This document shows positions 8,483-60,069 of a stretch of DNA of 64,000 bases, piece after piece. Both the position numbers and the translations under genes were made by a program. Numbering within the stretch: position 1 is the stretch's first letter; the number at the start of each line of letters is the position of its first letter. The stretch spans positions 124,001 to 188,000 of the forward strand of contig NZ_FNFE01000008.1 of the NCBI RefSeq assembly GCF_900100335.1, written 5' to 3'. The notes beneath the pieces were generated by a model. It worked only from the letters and a program-made list of their open reading frames with translations, was not told the DNA's origin and made no database searches. Origin of the DNA: Natronorubrum texcoconense (GTDB taxonomy: Archaea; Halobacteriota; Halobacteria; Halobacteriales; Natrialbaceae).

Positions 8483-8830
8483 TCAGCCGATCGTCAGCAC
8501 GCGGTCGGACGACGTCACGATCTCGAGGAGGTCGGACATCGTCGACATCGGACAGTACTCGCTTTCCTCGCTGTTGCGGATCTCGAGACACGTCCCACAC
8601 GCTTGTAGGTCGCCGCCGCCGTCGACGAACGCCTCCATCCGATCGCGGACATCGAACTGACCGTCGGTGACACCCTCGGCCTCGACGCCCTCGCCAAGAA
8701 GGAACACCGAGACCTCGTGGCCGTTCTCTACGGCCGTAATACCGAGTCGAAGTGCGTTCCAAGCGCGTTCGGGATCTGCGGTCTCGAGGACGATTCCGAG
8801 CCGTTCGGTCGCTGCATTCTGTTCAGGCAC
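8483..8830 (-). CDS. DsrE/DsrF-like protein
   Basis: A 115-residue DsrE-family protein, cytoplasmic sulfur-relay type. It has the Rossmann-like start RLGIVLETADPERAWNALRL, the strand HEVSVFLLGEGVEA, and a cysteine-containing ACGTCLEI (about 82-89) plus a further Cys in EYCPMST. Such cysteines carry persulfide in DsrE proteins. I place the start at a GTG (8830) because a TATA element TTTATAGC (8853-8860) lies about 26 bases upstream; the ATG at 8851 would fall on that TATA box. Unlike neighbours I could not find a good operator copy here. Confidence 0.8.
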   Translation of the reverse strand: MPEQNAATERLGIVLETADPERAWNALRLGITAVENGHEVSVFLLGEGVEAEGVTDGQFDVRDRMEAFVDGGGDLQACGTCLEIRNSEESEYCPMSTMSDLLEIVTSSDRVLTIG

Positions 8831-8853
8831 AATAATGTATAATAACCCCAATG

Positions 8854-10427: not shown

Positions 10428-10483
10428 GGGTCGTCACCTCCCCGTTCGCGTTTCCGAGATTCTCGAACGAGAATCTCGCTCAT
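10424..10483 (-). CDS. Possible 19-codon linker frame
   Basis: Frame MSEILVRESRKRERGGDDP fills the gap between the two transporter genes exactly: its ATG overlaps the first gene's stop by one base and its stop overlaps the GTG of the second. It contains a perfect 10-bp inverted repeat (10456-10477) with a two-base loop. It may serve translation coupling or mRNA processing rather than encode a working peptide. Confidence 0.35.
   Translation of the reverse strand: MSEILVRESRKRERGGDDP
10456..10477 (-). repeat. Perfect hairpin between two transporter genes
   Basis: GAGATTCTCG, two bases, then CGAGAATCTC. A strong short stem located in the intercistronic frame of the operon. Confidence 0.7.
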
Positions 10484-11040
10484 CACGGACTCACCCCCAG
10501 TGCCATTACGACCTGGGCCGTTCCGATCGCCACGGCGAGGAACGTCATCACGCCGACGATCGACGTCTTCGAGGCCGAGCCGACGCCACAGACGCCGTGG
10601 CCCGAGGTACAGCCCTTGCCGATCCGGGTGCCGATCCCGACGAGAATGCCGCCCAGGAACAGCCGCCAGGGCTGGACATCGGTCAGCCAGAGTGTGACAC
10701 CGCCGACATCGTACAACTCGCCGGTCGCCCCGGCTTCGTAAAGCCCGCTCGAGACCAGTCCGGACTGGAACGTCAGCGCGTAGGCGAACGCGCCGGCGAT
10801 GATCCCGAGTGTGAAAACGACCCGCCAGTCCCGTGAACTCCGGTAGCGCTGGAACCACGACTGGTCGGAGACGTACGACAGCGTCGACTCGAGGAACGTA
10901 CTCGCGCCGGCCGCGATGCCGGTTCCGAGGTAGATAACGACGGCTCCGAGGCCGACGAGCAGTCCGCCGACGACGTAGCGGCTGATCCCCACGGGAAACA
11001 GCGATTCGTACAGCGCCGGAGCGAAGAGTTCAGTGACCAT
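10483..11040 (-). CDS. YeeE/YedE-type transporter, first half
   Basis: A 185-residue membrane protein with the YeeE signature GKGCTSGHGVCGVGSASKTS (about 141-160), whose cysteines line the sulfur-compound path in known thiosulfate importers. About five helices. It lies 20 bases downstream of the rhodanese-lactamase gene and is followed by the partner half; together they match the full-length two-domain YeeE. Likely import of thiosulfate or related sulfane sulfur for the enzymes in this operon. Confidence 0.87.
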   Translation of the reverse strand: MVTELFAPALYESLFPVGISRYVVGGLLVGLGAVVIYLGTGIAAGASTFLESTLSYVSDQSWFQRYRSSRDWRVVFTLGIIAGAFAYALTFQSGLVSSGLYEAGATGELYDVGGVTLWLTDVQPWRLFLGGILVGIGTRIGKGCTSGHGVCGVGSASKTSIVGVMTFLAVAIGTAQVVMALGVSP

Positions 11041-28065: not shown

Positions 28066-30108
28066 ATGTCCCACGAGAACCCATCCGGATCGGTCACGCA
28101 CATCACAGACGCACGATCGAGTTCCCTCCAAAGCCGACTCCGCGACGGGACACCGTACGCTACTCGAGCAATTTCAGTAGCGACGGCTCTCGAAGACGGT
28201 CTCGTGGGCGAGTTCGGATCCGCTTCTCGAGACGGAGCCGACCCACAGGGCCCCGTCGCCGTCGTCATCGAACACGACGATCCGGCGGAAACGACGGCCC
28301 TACTCGAGCGGTGTCACGCGACCGATGCAGCCGTTCCGACGATCGTGGTCCCGAAAGCGGGAAGCGAAGCGCTCGCGACGGCTGCGCTGCGGGGGAACGC
28401 CGACGAGTACGTCGCTCCCGGAACGGACGAGGATCCTGTCGAACGAATTCTCGAGACGATTCGCTCAACCCCGGAAACGAGTGTGGAGACAGCGCGAACG
28501 CGACCGTCGACGCGATCCGCCGACCGCGACTACCACCGAATCCTCGCGAACGAACTGCCCGACGAGGCGTTCGTCCTCGGCGAAGACGGAACCTACCTCG
28601 AGGTGAAGGTGCGACCGGACGCTGCGGAACTGTACACGAAGCCGGCCGACCAGTTACTGGGAGAACAGCTCCAAAACGTCTTTCCGGACGACGTCGCCGC
28701 GAAGCTAGAGGCGTGTATCGATCGAACGCTTCGGACCGATACGATTCAAACGATCGAGTACGGCGCGAAGACGACCGACGGAGACCGACAGTTCGAAGCT
28801 CGAGTCGTCCCGATCGACGATCGAATCGAGGGACAGCGAGCCGTCGTCTGGCTCGCCAGGGATATCACCGAACGGGCGAAACGCGAACGCGAGCTTCGAT
28901 CGCGTCAGGATCAACTCGAGACACTCAATCGAATCAGCACGGTCGTCGGGCAAGTCATCGATACGCTGGTGGAGGCCCCATCGCGGGACGCCATCGAGCG
29001 CGAGGTCTGTGAACAGCTCGTCGACTCGGAGCTGTACTGTGGCGCCTGGATCGCCGAGCGCACGGGCGAAGGGACGCTTGCGTACCGAACCGGTGCCGGC
29101 GATGCCGAAACCTACCTCGAGGCGGTCGAAGCGCTCGACGCCGACCACGAGTGGTTAGGAATGCGAACCGTCCAGACGGGGTCGGCCCAGACGGAGATGG
29201 ACGTCCAGAAGAGCGAGACGGTCCCCGAGCCGTTGCGAAACGCCGCTCGCGAGGACGACGTCAGTTCGGCGATCACCGTTCCGATCGACCACAACGACTC
29301 GATTTACGGCGTGTTAACCGTCCTCGCCAGCCGTGATGAGGCGTTCAGCGGCGACGAGATGGCCGGCTTCGAACTCCTCGGCGAGACCATCGGCTTCACC
29401 ATCATGGCCGTGAAGAATCGACAGCTGCTGTTCGCCGATACGGTCGTCGAACTCGAGTTCCGGATCGACGGCGGCGACACGTTCGCGTTCGACCTCTCGG
29501 AGGAGTACGGCTGTACGTGTTCGCTCGAATGGGCCGGAACGACCTCCAGCGGGCGGACCGTCCAGTACGTGACGGTCGACGGAATCGACGGCGAAACCGT
29601 CCTCGAAGCGGCCAACGACCACCACTCGATCGAGGAGTGTCGACTCATCCACGACGGCGATGCCAGCTGTACGATCGAAATGCGTCTCTCCGAGTCGGGC
29701 GTTCGGACGCTGGCGAATCACGGTGCGACGATCAGAGACGTCAGCGTCGAGGACGGGGTCGGATGCTGCGTGATCGAGGTTTCACAGGACGCGGACGTTC
29801 GAGAGATCGCGGAGGCGCTGACCGTCGTCTACGAGAACACACAGCTCATCGCTCGTCGCGAAGTCGACCGATCGGTGCAGACCGCAGCCGAGCGTCGCAA
29901 CCGAATCCTCGATCAGCTCACCGATCGACAGCTGACCACGCTCCGACTCGCCTACTACAGCGGCTTTTTCGACTGGCCCCGGGAGAGTACCGGCGAGGAG
30001 ATCGCCGACGCGATGGGGGTTACTCCACCGACGATGCACCAGCACCTTCGAAAGGGGCTAAAAGCGGTTCTCTGCGAGTTCTTCGAGGTCGGCACCGAGA
30101 CGGAGTGA
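28066..30108 (+). CDS. Bat-like PAS/GAF sensor-regulator with HTH_10
   Basis: A 680-residue bacterioopsin-activator-type protein. In order: an N-terminal receiver-like segment (about 60-140, lacking a clear phosphate Asp), a PAS domain (about 165-275), a GAF domain (about 290-450), the Bat-specific region (about 460-615) and a C-terminal HTH_10 (about 625-675, RNRILDQLTDRQLTTLRLAY and TGEEIADAMGVTPPTMHQHL). Such proteins sense redox, light or oxygen and activate transcription directly without a kinase. The HTH region DRQLTTLRLAYYSGFFDWPR is the family hallmark. Its targets here are not visible. Confidence 0.9.
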   Translation: MSHENPSGSVTHITDARSSSLQSRLRDGTPYATRAISVATALEDGLVGEFGSASRDGADPQGPVAVVIEHDDPAETTALLERCHATDAAVPTIVVPKAGSEALATAALRGNADEYVAPGTDEDPVERILETIRSTPETSVETARTRPSTRSADRDYHRILANELPDEAFVLGEDGTYLEVKVRPDAAELYTKPADQLLGEQLQNVFPDDVAAKLEACIDRTLRTDTIQTIEYGAKTTDGDRQFEARVVPIDDRIEGQRAVVWLARDITERAKRERELRSRQDQLETLNRISTVVGQVIDTLVEAPSRDAIEREVCEQLVDSELYCGAWIAERTGEGTLAYRTGAGDAETYLEAVEALDADHEWLGMRTVQTGSAQTEMDVQKSETVPEPLRNAAREDDVSSAITVPIDHNDSIYGVLTVLASRDEAFSGDEMAGFELLGETIGFTIMAVKNRQLLFADTVVELEFRIDGGDTFAFDLSEEYGCTCSLEWAGTTSSGRTVQYVTVDGIDGETVLEAANDHHSIEECRLIHDGDASCTIEMRLSESGVRTLANHGATIRDVSVEDGVGCCVIEVSQDADVREIAEALTVVYENTQLIARREVDRSVQTAAERRNRILDQLTDRQLTTLRLAYYSGFFDWPRESTGEEIADAMGVTPPTMHQHLRKGLKAVLCEFFEVGTETE

Positions 30109-30415
30109 CGGCACAGTCGATGTCAGACGAGGTGCGGACCGACCTCGCTACCGGAGAGTCGTTCTCGGTACGATCGAGAGCTCTTCACCGGAAATCCGGT
30201 GTGGTAGATGCGGTGGGACACACGTCGACCGAACCGCGCAGAATCGAGTGCGTTCGGGCTCAAACGGTTCGATATCGGGCGGGACGGCGAGACGCTCGAG
30301 AGACGGGACGGTCAGTCGTCCAACCGGTCGAACGCTCCCCTATCAAAACTTGGGAGAGCGAACAGGCACACGAACGCACAATGTCGATACGGAACGGCGC
30401 GCTACGGCAATTCGT
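30109..30415. other. Intergenic stretch before the dsrE pseudogene
   Basis: Nothing recognised apart from the likely former promoter of the pseudogene. Confidence 0.35.
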
Positions 30416-30848
30416 ATCCCAGACGCAGCAATCGTCGTTCTCGCCGGTACAAAGTCGCCATCCGAGCTCGGCCGGGTCGTCAACGGTCTCCAGACCGCAC
30501 AGGAGTTCGACGACGCGGGGGATAGCGTCGAGATACTCTTCGACAGTGCGGGAACACAGTGGATTCCCGAACTCGAGGACGAGGATCACGACTATCACTC
30601 GCTGTACGCCGAACTGACCGGGCTCATGTCGGCCTGTAACTATAGTAACAACTGCAAGTCATTGCACACCTGATCGCCGAACCGTCTGGCGATCAGTGTG
30701 TAAATCGTTGCAGTGGCTACTATACTGTGCGAACGCCTACGAGGTCGGCGACGAGGTCAAAGATAGTCCGGCAGAACTACTCGACGAACACGAGGGCCAC
30801 CCCAGTATCCGATCGCACCTCGTCGACGGCTACGAGATTATACGCTGA
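30416..30848 (+). pseudogene. DsrE-family gene split by a MITE
   Basis: The readable 5' part (PDAAIVVLAGTKSPSELGRV, then FDSAGTQWIPELEDEDHDYH) matches haloarchaeal DsrE-family proteins, which carry sulfur as persulfide. An 80-base element inserted at 30643-30722 introduces a frame change and stop. Removing it with one copy of the TA duplication restores the codons TGT AAC TAC TGT GCG AAC, reading CNYCAN, the conserved double-cysteine site, and the frame then runs to DEHEGHPSIRSHLVDGYEII and the stop at 30846. The expected ATG reads ATC (30416), so the start is also lost. Two separate lesions argue for a dead gene. Confidence 0.75.
30643..30722. mobile_element. 80-bp MITE, copy 1, with TA target duplication
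   Basis: Terminal inverted repeats TAGTAACAACTGCAA and TAGTAGCCACTGCAA, with inner arms containing GATCGCC and CACAC, flanked by TA on both sides (30641-30642 and 30723-30724). TA duplication suggests mobilisation by an IS630/Tc1-type transposase; none is in the window. Confidence 0.75.
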
Positions 30849-30854
30849 ACAGGC

Positions 30855-31411
30855 GCAATACCACGGCCTTCAGGCCGTGGATACGCGCCGTCACTTAGTG
30901 CCACATTCCACCGTTAAGAGCATAGCCGAGTTTCCGATCCTAACGTTCAAGTTACAAGAGTCTCCATAGGCTGGTAAGGTCAGGTCGGAACGGAGCGGAT
31001 TCCGAACAACCTTCGGAGGCGGCCTGCCCGCCACCCAACGAGGCAATATCCGAAACGCTGACGCGGTGAACACGAATCCTCGAAGGGTTCGTCATTGTGC
31101 CCGTCGGTCGAGCAAGCCCGACGATAACTCCGAGTTCGTCGACGTGTCAGCGGCTCCCTGCTGGCAAAAAAAACAGATGAGAGCCAAAGACACTGAGGAT
31201 AGGAGTAACGGCGGTTTGGCACCGCCAGTCAGCCACCGTCACGATGGCTGGGTTAGATGTGGACTCCCGTAAAGTGGCGGAGTCATGGTTGCGAACCTGA
31301 AACTCTCACCGCTCGGGATTCCTGCGTTAACGAGACGCGTCGCGTCTCGTTCGCACACCAGAACGCTCCGCGTTCTGGAGACGTCTTCAGGCGCAGGAGG
31401 ATGTCAACACG
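30855..31411 (+). mobile_element. Non-autonomous IS200/IS605-like element (PATE-like)
   Basis: No transposase or TnpB frame. It begins near a palindromic hairpin (30861-30880, CCACGGCC pairing with GGCCGTGG) of the sort at the left end of haloarchaeal IS1341-type elements, and ends near GGAGGATGTCA (about 31399-31409), which resembles their right end. Shortly before the right end lie two perfect hairpins (31329-31351 and 31358-31378). The family is inferred from remembered element ends. Confidence 0.5.
31329..31378 (+). repeat. Pair of hairpins near the element's right end
   Basis: AACGAGACGCG pairs with CGCGTCTCGTT (one-base loop, 31329-31351), then CCAGAACGC pairs with GCGTTCTGG (three-base loop, 31358-31378). 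The layout resembles the hairpin pair in the tnpB 3' end at 42858-42910. Confidence 0.6.
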
Positions 31412-31618
31412 TACTGAGGACCCCAGTAGACGACAAGCGAACGATACGCGGCCCAATAGGTCGGTGCCAACGACGCCGACAGCTATTCTGCCGAGCAACA
31501 GAGGACTCGTCGAGACGCCAGCGAAGGCACCACCCTCGGTCGCGTACCTGAGTCCGAACTCGCCAGCGGAGTACTCATAACGAAAGTCGATAGTCACGAT
31601 ATCTTAAAGAAACGGTAT

Positions 31619-31990
31619 GTGAACCCGAGGGCCGATGTCGTCGCCTCGAGTTCGAACGACTGGGATGGGTACGACGACCGCCTCGGCGATAACCACCGTC
31701 GATCGACCGACGGAGAGCGTGGTATCGTGGTGACGGATACACCCGCCGACGTGCTCTACGAGGGGGCAAACGGCCACTACTACACCGACTGCCAGGTCAC
31801 GACCAATCTGCGTACCGAACGATGGAAGCCATGCATCAGACAGCGTGACCCGGACCGACGACTGGTGGAAACGAGCGACGGTGGCCTGCTGTTGCTGACA
31901 CCGACAGACGACCTCCCCGCCTGGGCGGAGATACGCGTCGACGACCGCGGTACTCGCGTCGTCGATACGCGACGCCCACTGCCGGAGTGA
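31619..31990 (+). CDS. Hypothetical protein
   Basis: A possible 123-residue protein with acidic middle and C-terminal regions (GERGIVVTDTPADVLYEGAN, then VETSDGGLLLLTPTDDLPAW). The composition favours this strand over the frame on the opposite one. No family recognised. It adjoins the mobile element, and its N-terminal 30 residues look less convincing, so the true start may be further in. Confidence 0.45.
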   Translation: MNPRADVVASSSNDWDGYDDRLGDNHRRSTDGERGIVVTDTPADVLYEGANGHYYTDCQVTTNLRTERWKPCIRQRDPDRRLVETSDGGLLLLTPTDDLPAWAEIRVDDRGTRVVDTRRPLPE

Positions 31991-32176
31991 CGTTCCGTCC
32001 CAACGATTTTCGCTGTGTTCGACGGTAGCGCCTGCTGCCAACACCCGCAGTTCGGAAACGACGACGTCTCGGTGACGAAATAGGTGTGGGGATGAGTGTC
32101 AGGCGTACCTGACCGACTATAATGGAGTACTATGTGAAGCGGTACAAACTGGCCGTCGCGCGCGAGAGGAGCGATC

Positions 32177-32941
32177 GTGAATCGACGCGTGTTTCTCGGA
32201 ACGGCCGGCTCCCTCGCCTCCGTCGGGACGCTGGCGTACGCGACCCGGGACCCCGTCGACACGCTCGAGATTCGCGTCTGGCTCTCGGAGCAGGCGGCAA
32301 GTTACGGCGGCGTCACCGATCGTATACTCGAGTATCTCGAGCGAATCTTCGACCTCGAGCACTGGTCGCTCACGGTCTCGAGCGGTGGAACCGTCGACGT
32401 CTCGACCGAGAACGGTGCGGAAGTGACGAGCGGCGGCGAATGGCCGGCAGCGCTCGCTGCGGGGGCGATCGGTCGCCGTGACTTGTCACCGGTCTCCGAC
32501 GTCAACCTGCTCGTCACGGACGGCCAGATGCGGCAGGCCCCGACCGGCTACGGGCTTCCGCACATCGCCTCGGTCGGCGGCGCCAGGCACATCGCCGCCC
32601 TCGACCCGTTCGACGAACTCTTCTCGTCACCGGGAGCCGACGCCGACCGGCGGATCGTTCCGAACGGACGGCCGCCGCGGACGATGCAAATTCTCGCCCA
32701 CGAAGTCGGTCACGCGCTTGGCTTACAACACGATCACGGCGTCGCCTATCGGTACGGTGATGCGATCGTCGCCTCACCGATGCTGAGCAGTTACGCCTGG
32801 TCGTCCGACTACGACGACGATAGCTCGCGATGCGGTACGAGCTACCCCGACCCCGCGGGTCTCGATCGAAAGCTCAGTCTGGCGTTCTCGCCCTGTGCGC
32901 GCCGCGAACTCGCCGACTACAGCGGCGGGTTTCTCCCGTAG
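32177..32941 (+). CDS. Secreted zincin metallopeptidase-like protein
   Basis: A 254-residue protein starting at a GTG with a twin-arginine signal (NRRVFLGTAGSLASVGTLAY). The zinc site HEVGHALGLQHDH (about 175-187) is the HExxHxxxxxH of metzincin-like proteases, followed by a Met in SPMLSSYAW that could form the Met-turn. Cysteines near the C-terminus (RCGTSYPD, SPCARRE) could form a disulfide outside the cell. Similar Tat-exported zincins with this motif exist in haloarchaea. Substrate unknown. Confidence 0.8.
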   Translation: MNRRVFLGTAGSLASVGTLAYATRDPVDTLEIRVWLSEQAASYGGVTDRILEYLERIFDLEHWSLTVSSGGTVDVSTENGAEVTSGGEWPAALAAGAIGRRDLSPVSDVNLLVTDGQMRQAPTGYGLPHIASVGGARHIAALDPFDELFSSPGADADRRIVPNGRPPRTMQILAHEVGHALGLQHDHGVAYRYGDAIVASPMLSSYAWSSDYDDDSSRCGTSYPDPAGLDRKLSLAFSPCARRELADYSGGFLP

Positions 32942-33051: not shown

Positions 33052-33408
33052 TCAGTCTTCGTCGTCGTCGCTCTCGTCCTCGCCGCGGACGAAACTCGCC
33101 TGCGCATCGCCACCCTGTCCGGTCCCGCCCGCGCTTGGACCTTCGATGAGCGAGTCGAAGTCGTCGACCTCGTCGTACTGCTCCCGGTAGACGAGCGCTG
33201 CCTTCCCGAGGGACGTAATCTCGTATAACCCGGACCGTTCGGCCGGCCCGATCTTCCGGACGAGTCCGTAATCTTCCAGTACCGGGAGCCTCGTGTTGAT
33301 GTTTTTGCGGCTCTTCCCCGTGTGAGCGGCGAGATTCGTGGCGACGTTTCGACCCTTGTCCTCGAGCGCCTCGAGGACCAAAAAATCAGTAGGTTGACGT
33401 AACTTCAC
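33052..33408 (-). CDS. Winged-helix repressor-like protein
   Basis: A 118-residue protein like the phage phiH1 repressor and its chromosomal relatives in haloarchaea: winged helix at about 5-75 (DFLVLEALEDKGRNVATNLA, then NTRLPVLEDYGLVRKI and GLYEITSLGKAALVYREQYD), then an acidic, Gly-rich tail (SDDDED at the end). Target unknown. The AT-rich region upstream (33409-33612) probably holds its promoter; no gene is visible there. Confidence 0.78.
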   Translation of the reverse strand: MKLRQPTDFLVLEALEDKGRNVATNLAAHTGKSRKNINTRLPVLEDYGLVRKIGPAERSGLYEITSLGKAALVYREQYDEVDDFDSLIEGPSAGGTGQGGDAQASFVRGEDESDDDED

Positions 33409-59963: not shown

Positions 59964-59991
59964 TGTAACTGATTTTGTTGGGTAAGTTACA
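59964..59991. promoter_or_regulatory. TGTAACT inverted repeat at the antitoxin start
   Basis: TGTAACT, 14 bases, AGTTACA. The last two bases (CA) belong to MITE copy 2, so the natural half-site may be only AGTTA. It shares TGTAAC with the repeats at 60097-60146. Confidence 0.35.
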
Positions 59992-60069
59992 TTAGCCACT
60001 GGAAGTCAGTGCACACCCGATCGTACGACGGCTATGCGATCGGTGTGTAAACAGTTCCAGTTGTTACTA
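59990..60069. mobile_element. 80-bp MITE, copy 2
   Basis: Ends CATTAGCCACTGGAA and TAGTAACAACTGGAA (inverted), flanked by TA on both sides, exactly 80 bases like copy 1, with CACACCGATCG arms. It sits between the two divergent toxin-like operons and so may influence their promoters. Confidence 0.7.

Follow-up and report, generated by a model that had tools for sequence, protein, structure and literature searches.

Introduction

MITEs in haloarchaea, and the disruption of genes by mobile elements, are both already known. A TA target that is duplicated on insertion is typical of IS630, Tc1 and mariner elements. The closest described counterparts of the elements reported here are the MITEs of Haloquadratum walsbyi, which, in the portion of PMC3119063 drawn on here, are short, non-coding, bounded by terminal inverted repeats, accompanied by a target duplication and moved in trans, a description that also suits the 80-bp element below. 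Some mobile MITEs are reported there from a genome with no functional transposase that fits them (PMC3119063, same portion). The IS200/IS605 TnpB elements and PATEs covered in that portion share with our second element the lack of a target duplication, a palindrome near the left end, a conserved right end and loss of the core (PMC3119063).

Here we describe one small gene of Natronorubrum texcoconense that was struck by two unrelated mobile elements. It lies in a window of 64,000 nucleotides (contig NZ_FNFE01000008.1, positions 124,001 to 188,000), to which all coordinates refer. We are close to certain that this is a recently dead gene for a predicted DsrE-fold protein, with a MITE between its two conserved cysteines, a separate TnpB-element insertion and a lost start codon.

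The interrupted gene and its product

The features of the locus, with the support for each, are as follows.

30416-30418, forward strand: lost start codon of the DsrE-like gene, with ATC in place of ATG; relatives L116-L121 have ATG.
30416-30642, forward strand: 5' segment of the disrupted DsrE-like gene, ending with Cys-Asn-Ty; 96% match to the N-terminal part of the query, in-frame translation and relatives.
30641-30642, no strand: left TA of the target duplication; a single TA in the orthologue (L009/L116).
30643-30722, forward strand: 80-bp MITE, a near-complete palindrome with ends TAGTAACAACTGCAAG and (reverse complement) TAGTAGCCACTGCAAC; copies, terminal repeats and fold.
30723-30724, no strand: right TA of the target duplication; orthologue comparison and direct reading.
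30725-30841, forward strand: central segment of the gene, which begins with the second conserved Cys and runs to Glu-Ile-Ile; in-frame comparison and orthologue.
30838-30841, forward strand: TTAT, bordering the second element on its left; also precedes copies L202, L203 and L204.
30842-31407, forward strand: 566-bp TnpB/IS200-IS605-type remnant without an intact tnpB, including the TGA at 30846-30848; TnpB elements on contigs C2 (two) and C3 of the same genome match its left end and 3' part, and the right end GGAGGATGTCAA is shared.
31408-31417, forward strand: the gene's own 3' terminus, C ACG TAC TGA, completing Ile-Thr-Tyr-stop; relatives end ATC, then ACG, ACC or ACT, then TAC and a stop.

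An orthologue of the gene is found in a syntenic position in Natronorubrum halalkaliphilum (L116), where it has one TA and no insert. Synteny extends upstream to a BAT/HTH_10 regulator (74% identity) and downstream to the products of 31619-31990 (71%), 32177-32941 (76%) and 33052-33408 on the minus strand (89%). An AlphaFold2 model of the L116 protein has a mean pLDDT of 96.3, and a Foldseek search of the PDB with this model returns 2fb6 first, followed by DsrEFH (2hy5), 2pd2, TusBCD (2d1p) and 3mc3, with modest E values (7.5e-4 to 1.4e-2) and probabilities of 0.99-1.00. A sequence search of the PDB with the DsrE-like profile gave no meaningful match. Pfam DsrE (PF02635) matches 11 of 15 members of the subfamily at E<=0.1 (alignment A2; best 1.6e-5). 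The product is thus a predicted DsrE-fold protein, and we infer a role in sulfur transfer. The first-pass annotation had called the gene a dsrE, a sulfur-relay gene outside the sulfur block; the name is sound at the level of fold, given the matches to DsrEFH, TusBCD and DsrE/F-like structures; at the level of the Pfam family the nearest intact orthologue scores 18.0 bits against a cut-off of 22.7. Its location outside the block is correct, and the sulfur-relay role is the inferred part.

That block (about 5.5-12.3 kb) contains TauE, a DsrE, thioredoxin, a sulfur-transport fragment and a lactamase-rhodanese gene. The genome keeps two other DsrE-domain genes, one of them the block's own (8483-8851, minus strand). 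We note also that at 10483-11040 (minus strand) the match to Sulf_transp (PF04143) is limited to the last 46 profile positions, and this is probably a truncated or broken sulfur-transport gene.

An 80-bp insertion between two invariant cysteines

Read directly, the filled site runs TGTAAC, TA, the 80-bp element (TAGTAACAACTGCAAG...GTTGCAGTGGCTACTA), TA and CTGTGCGAAC. The element has the terminal inverted repeat TAGTARYMACTGMAAV at either end and no coding capacity. Alignment with the G005 orthologue (same genus; L116 is 100% identical) shows exactly 82 bases missing from the latter; identity on the left side ends in ACTA, identity on the right begins with TACTG, and because the two overlap by TA alone the borders of the element are fixed. 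The uninterrupted junction TGTAACTACTGTGCGAA (TGT AAC TAC TGT GCG AA) occurs naturally in L118, from the MAG Natrialbaceae CSSed10_265. The insertion point falls in the TAC codon between cysteines C74 and C77 (numbered as in alignment A3), a CxxC pair that is invariant in all 39 intact relatives aligned (chosen from 80 kept of 146 confirmed). The insertion duplicated the TA, threw the gene out of frame and introduced stop codons, which rules out any protein product that contains the CxxC site; the killing lesion is the MITE.

These comparisons bear out what had been proposed from the interrupted sequence itself, namely a TA-duplicating 80-bp MITE at the cysteine site, with exact borders and CNYCAN as the restored reading. 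The dsrE copy of the element was seen in this genome only, and the terminal repeat is absent from the gene regions of the 80 named relatives, none of which carries the same insert in the gene.

A second insertion in the last codons

Downstream of the cysteines the gene is cut again. A TnpB element on C2, and relatives on C2 and C3, share sequence with window segments 30837-30896 and 31324-31383. All four copies (the window and L202, L203 and L204) have the TTAT left flank and the right end GGAGGATGTCAA, and both ends of the second element are fixed because the three other copies share them. The copies are about 1.5 kb (L202 and L204), about 1.0 kb (L203) and 566 bp (window); TnpB domains PF01385 and PF07282 are present in L203 and L204, and an intact tnpB is not present in the window remnant (566 bp against about 1.5 kb). 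There is no target duplication. The DNA to the left ends GAG ATT AT and that to the right begins C ACG TAC TGA; joined, these read Glu-Ile-Ile-Thr-Tyr-stop, as in relatives, so the TnpB insertion lies within the final codons of this gene. By itself this insertion replaces the last two residues, Thr-Tyr, with Arg and leaves the frame otherwise open. A C-terminal 1-bp deletion was considered as a lesion and rejected, since the ends of the TnpB element account for it.

The six closest relatives (L116-L121) begin ATG CCA, where the window has ATC CCA. The limits of 30416 and 30848 given to the gene in the first-pass annotation therefore need revision at both ends: ATC at 30416 is not a start, and the TGA at 30846-30848 belongs to the TnpB element, which enters at 30842 and separates the gene from its real tail at 31408-31417. 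That account was right about the MITE and missed both the TnpB element and the loss of the start codon.

The 3' part of the remnant (31250-31423) has a strong RNA fold (z -4.6). Should this segment still function as an omega RNA, the dsrE tail would serve as its guide and would point at the empty site; no recognised omega RNA is present, as Rfam gave nothing for 30000-32200 at E<=0.1. A two-hairpin repeat within the remnant was tried as a mobile in-frame element and set aside, as it occurs in only two places in the genome.

Coding constraint and the order of events

Read in frame around the insert, the window gene has dN/dS values of 0.135 against L116, 0.162 against L117 and 0.121 against L118, and apart from the insertions there is no other frameshift or stop. 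The low dN/dS indicates that the gene was under constraint until recently. Its loss looks recent on these sequence comparisons, a timing that low dN/dS alone cannot date. An assembly error behind the lesions is unlikely, because there are three separate lesions and the insert belongs to a family of elements.

We propose that a transposase with TA as its target would have moved the non-autonomous 80-bp MITE in trans, placing it in the TAC codon that separates the invariant cysteines. Separately, an IS200/IS605-type TnpB element inserted after TTAT in the last codons, without duplication, and would later have lost most of its inside. The start codon also changed from ATG to ATC. The simplest order would be a tolerated TnpB insertion, then the inactivating MITE, then loss of the start codon; a working gene could have borne the TnpB insertion, as this costs only the last two residues.

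A different order, which we regard as possible and clearly less probable, is that the gene was already dead, through loss of its start or alteration of its tail by the TnpB element, and that the MITE landed in a pseudogene. The ATC start, where six relatives have ATG, is in keeping with this, as are the decay of the TnpB remnant, which is therefore not new, and a Ser in the window at G44, a residue invariant in the 39 aligned relatives. Against it stand the low dN/dS and the absence of any further frameshift or stop, and the TnpB insertion alone leaves the frame open to within two residues of its normal end.

Copies and distribution of the 80-bp family

The genome (4.64 Mb, 11 contigs) holds at least 27 places for the 80-bp family, the dsrE copy included, so that the further copies anticipated in the first-pass annotation are indeed there. 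This number results from merging by hand, across strands, the 40 matches scored of 217 candidates with a 433-bp query. The terminal-repeat pattern has 55 matches in the genome compared with 1 for its reversed control, and the DNA fold of the element, a single long hairpin, lies 6.9 s.d. below shuffled sequences (0 of 200 shuffles as good); together these show that the family is not due to chance. With the element alone as query, 19 of 41 genomes gave matches (own genome counted), comprising all 10 of the genus (own included) and 9 of 15 others of the family; in the order's other families, 16 genomes gave no match.

From 18 genomes we extracted 30 distinct copies of 78-82 bp, with longer and strongly decayed copies filtered out. 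Within this range 28 are 80 bp, with one each of 79 and 81 bp. TA is present on both sides in 22 copies, and mutation could explain the eight in which it is not. C precedes the left TA in 19 of the 30 copies; after the right TA, 14 copies have G and 9 have C. A second copy in the window (59990-60069) has TA on both sides and a more decayed left end. The flanks of another copy in this genome (L002) resemble those of L031 in G003, so at least one copy may be at a shared, older site.

Relative to other copies in the same genome, the outer ends and inner arms of 30643-30722 are swapped, as if the inner palindrome had been flipped (AACAAC then ...CAAG, GCCAC then ...CAAC). Seven longer copies in this genome (L054, L055, L059, L062, L067, L074 and L075) measure roughly 110-420 bp, and in most of them the hairpin loop contains G+C-rich repeats such as GCGGTTCGGAGCGAACGAAGTGAGCGAGAACCGCGG; their length is too small for a transposase.

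Partner transposase

Searching the genome by terminal-repeat pattern revealed no autonomous element with these ends. Of 30 terminal-repeat loci examined, 29 are paired with a second repeat at a distance of 63 to 400 nt; in the remaining one (L051) the partner has a deletion. In five genomes the same pattern gave mainly pairs 64-65 nt apart, with no full-length element among the matches listed. A search of 41 genomes for the IS630-type transposase domain PF13358 had no match in the N. texcoconense genome; it had more than 100 matches in 20 genomes, and in 30 of these loci from relatives no terminal-repeat pair surrounds the transposase. At one such locus (L080) a separate 80-bp copy is located beside the transposase. 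PF01609 has two weak matches in the N. texcoconense genome, and viral contigs yielded 0 and 6 stretches. The ends of the family have the sequence TAGTARCMACTGMAA.

The way the element moves is drawn by analogy, from the TA duplication it has in common with IS630/Tc1/mariner elements, the partner itself not having been found; an absent partner is not unheard of, as the mobile Haloquadratum MITEs reported without a functional transposase illustrate (PMC3119063, portion used here). More tentatively, and as a suggestion we think has only a modest chance of being right, the family may be an unusually compact, fixed-length and near-fully palindromic Natrialbaceae element with a CTA(G/C) target bias and no IS630-type partner, for which the candidate mover would be an unrecognised haloarchaeal transposase recognising the whole hairpin, and of which the dsrE copy would have its inner part flipped relative to its ends. 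It is improbable that the repeat is instead a non-transposable hairpin, for example REP-like or regulatory, spread by other means; the near-complete palindrome and the missing partner would suit such a repeat, but it does not account for a clean TA-bounded insertion against an empty site, for a copy placed inside coding sequence, or for most copies being fixed in length with TA flanks.

The gene in other Natrialbaceae

A profile of the intact family matches in 81 of 125 family genomes, and absence of the gene is thus common. Other broken copies are also present. In G011 the gene (L219, C129:13900-14900) is interrupted by a 57-bp insert that forms two hairpins, contains a TAG and has GACG on both sides; one of these hairpins resembles that at window 31358-31378. 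In G093 one copy contains a short hairpin insert, and another copy elsewhere is intact. In G138 the gene is split over two contigs (L215 and L216; C74 and C75) one residue before the CxxC motif, and a 270-bp sequence, 99.6% alike, is found at both ends of the break; either an element or an artefact of assembly may account for this. Paralogues may have left the fragments seen in G050, G075 and G107. The DsrE-like gene has therefore been broken repeatedly in Natrialbaceae.

It is very improbable that the N. texcoconense locus still makes a useful product, whether a shortened N-terminal protein or a small one initiated at a GTG within the MITE. A 50-aa ORF (30696-30848) starts in the element, continues the old frame and keeps the second cysteine in Cys-Ala-Asn, but the first cysteine, a normal start and the N-terminal half of the DsrE fold are all missing from it, and nothing similar was seen in relatives.

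Comparison with known systems

As a gene-loss event the locus is of an ordinary kind and unusually easy to read. It provides a base-exact pair of empty and filled sites for a widespread haloarchaeal 80-bp MITE, and the 80-bp family would offer a natural record, ready to use, of the activity of a partner transposase if one were found. A description of the family was not found in the literature searched, which is not proof of absence; four terminal-repeat strings occurred there in two papers, both unrelated by title.

The 80-bp element shares a TA target and its duplication with the stowaway-like MITEs of the Tc1/mariner/IS630 type, and differs in its setting: the genome lacks PF13358, and the 30 IS630 loci of relatives do not have these repeats around the transposase. 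The DsrE-like product has the predicted fold and conserved cysteines of the DsrE/DsrF/TusBCD sulfurtransferases, whereas the gene represents a haloarchaeal CxxC subfamily whose nearest orthologue falls below the Pfam DsrE cut-off. The H. walsbyi MITEs, as presented in the portion of PMC3119063 used, have terminal repeats related to known transposons, whereas a transposon related to the 80-bp element was not found, and the two are likened by description and not by sequence. PATEs are described in that portion as derivatives that consist of the termini only (PMC3119063), whereas the remnant here keeps 566 bp and not a bare pair of ends, and bears two extra hairpins in its 3' part.
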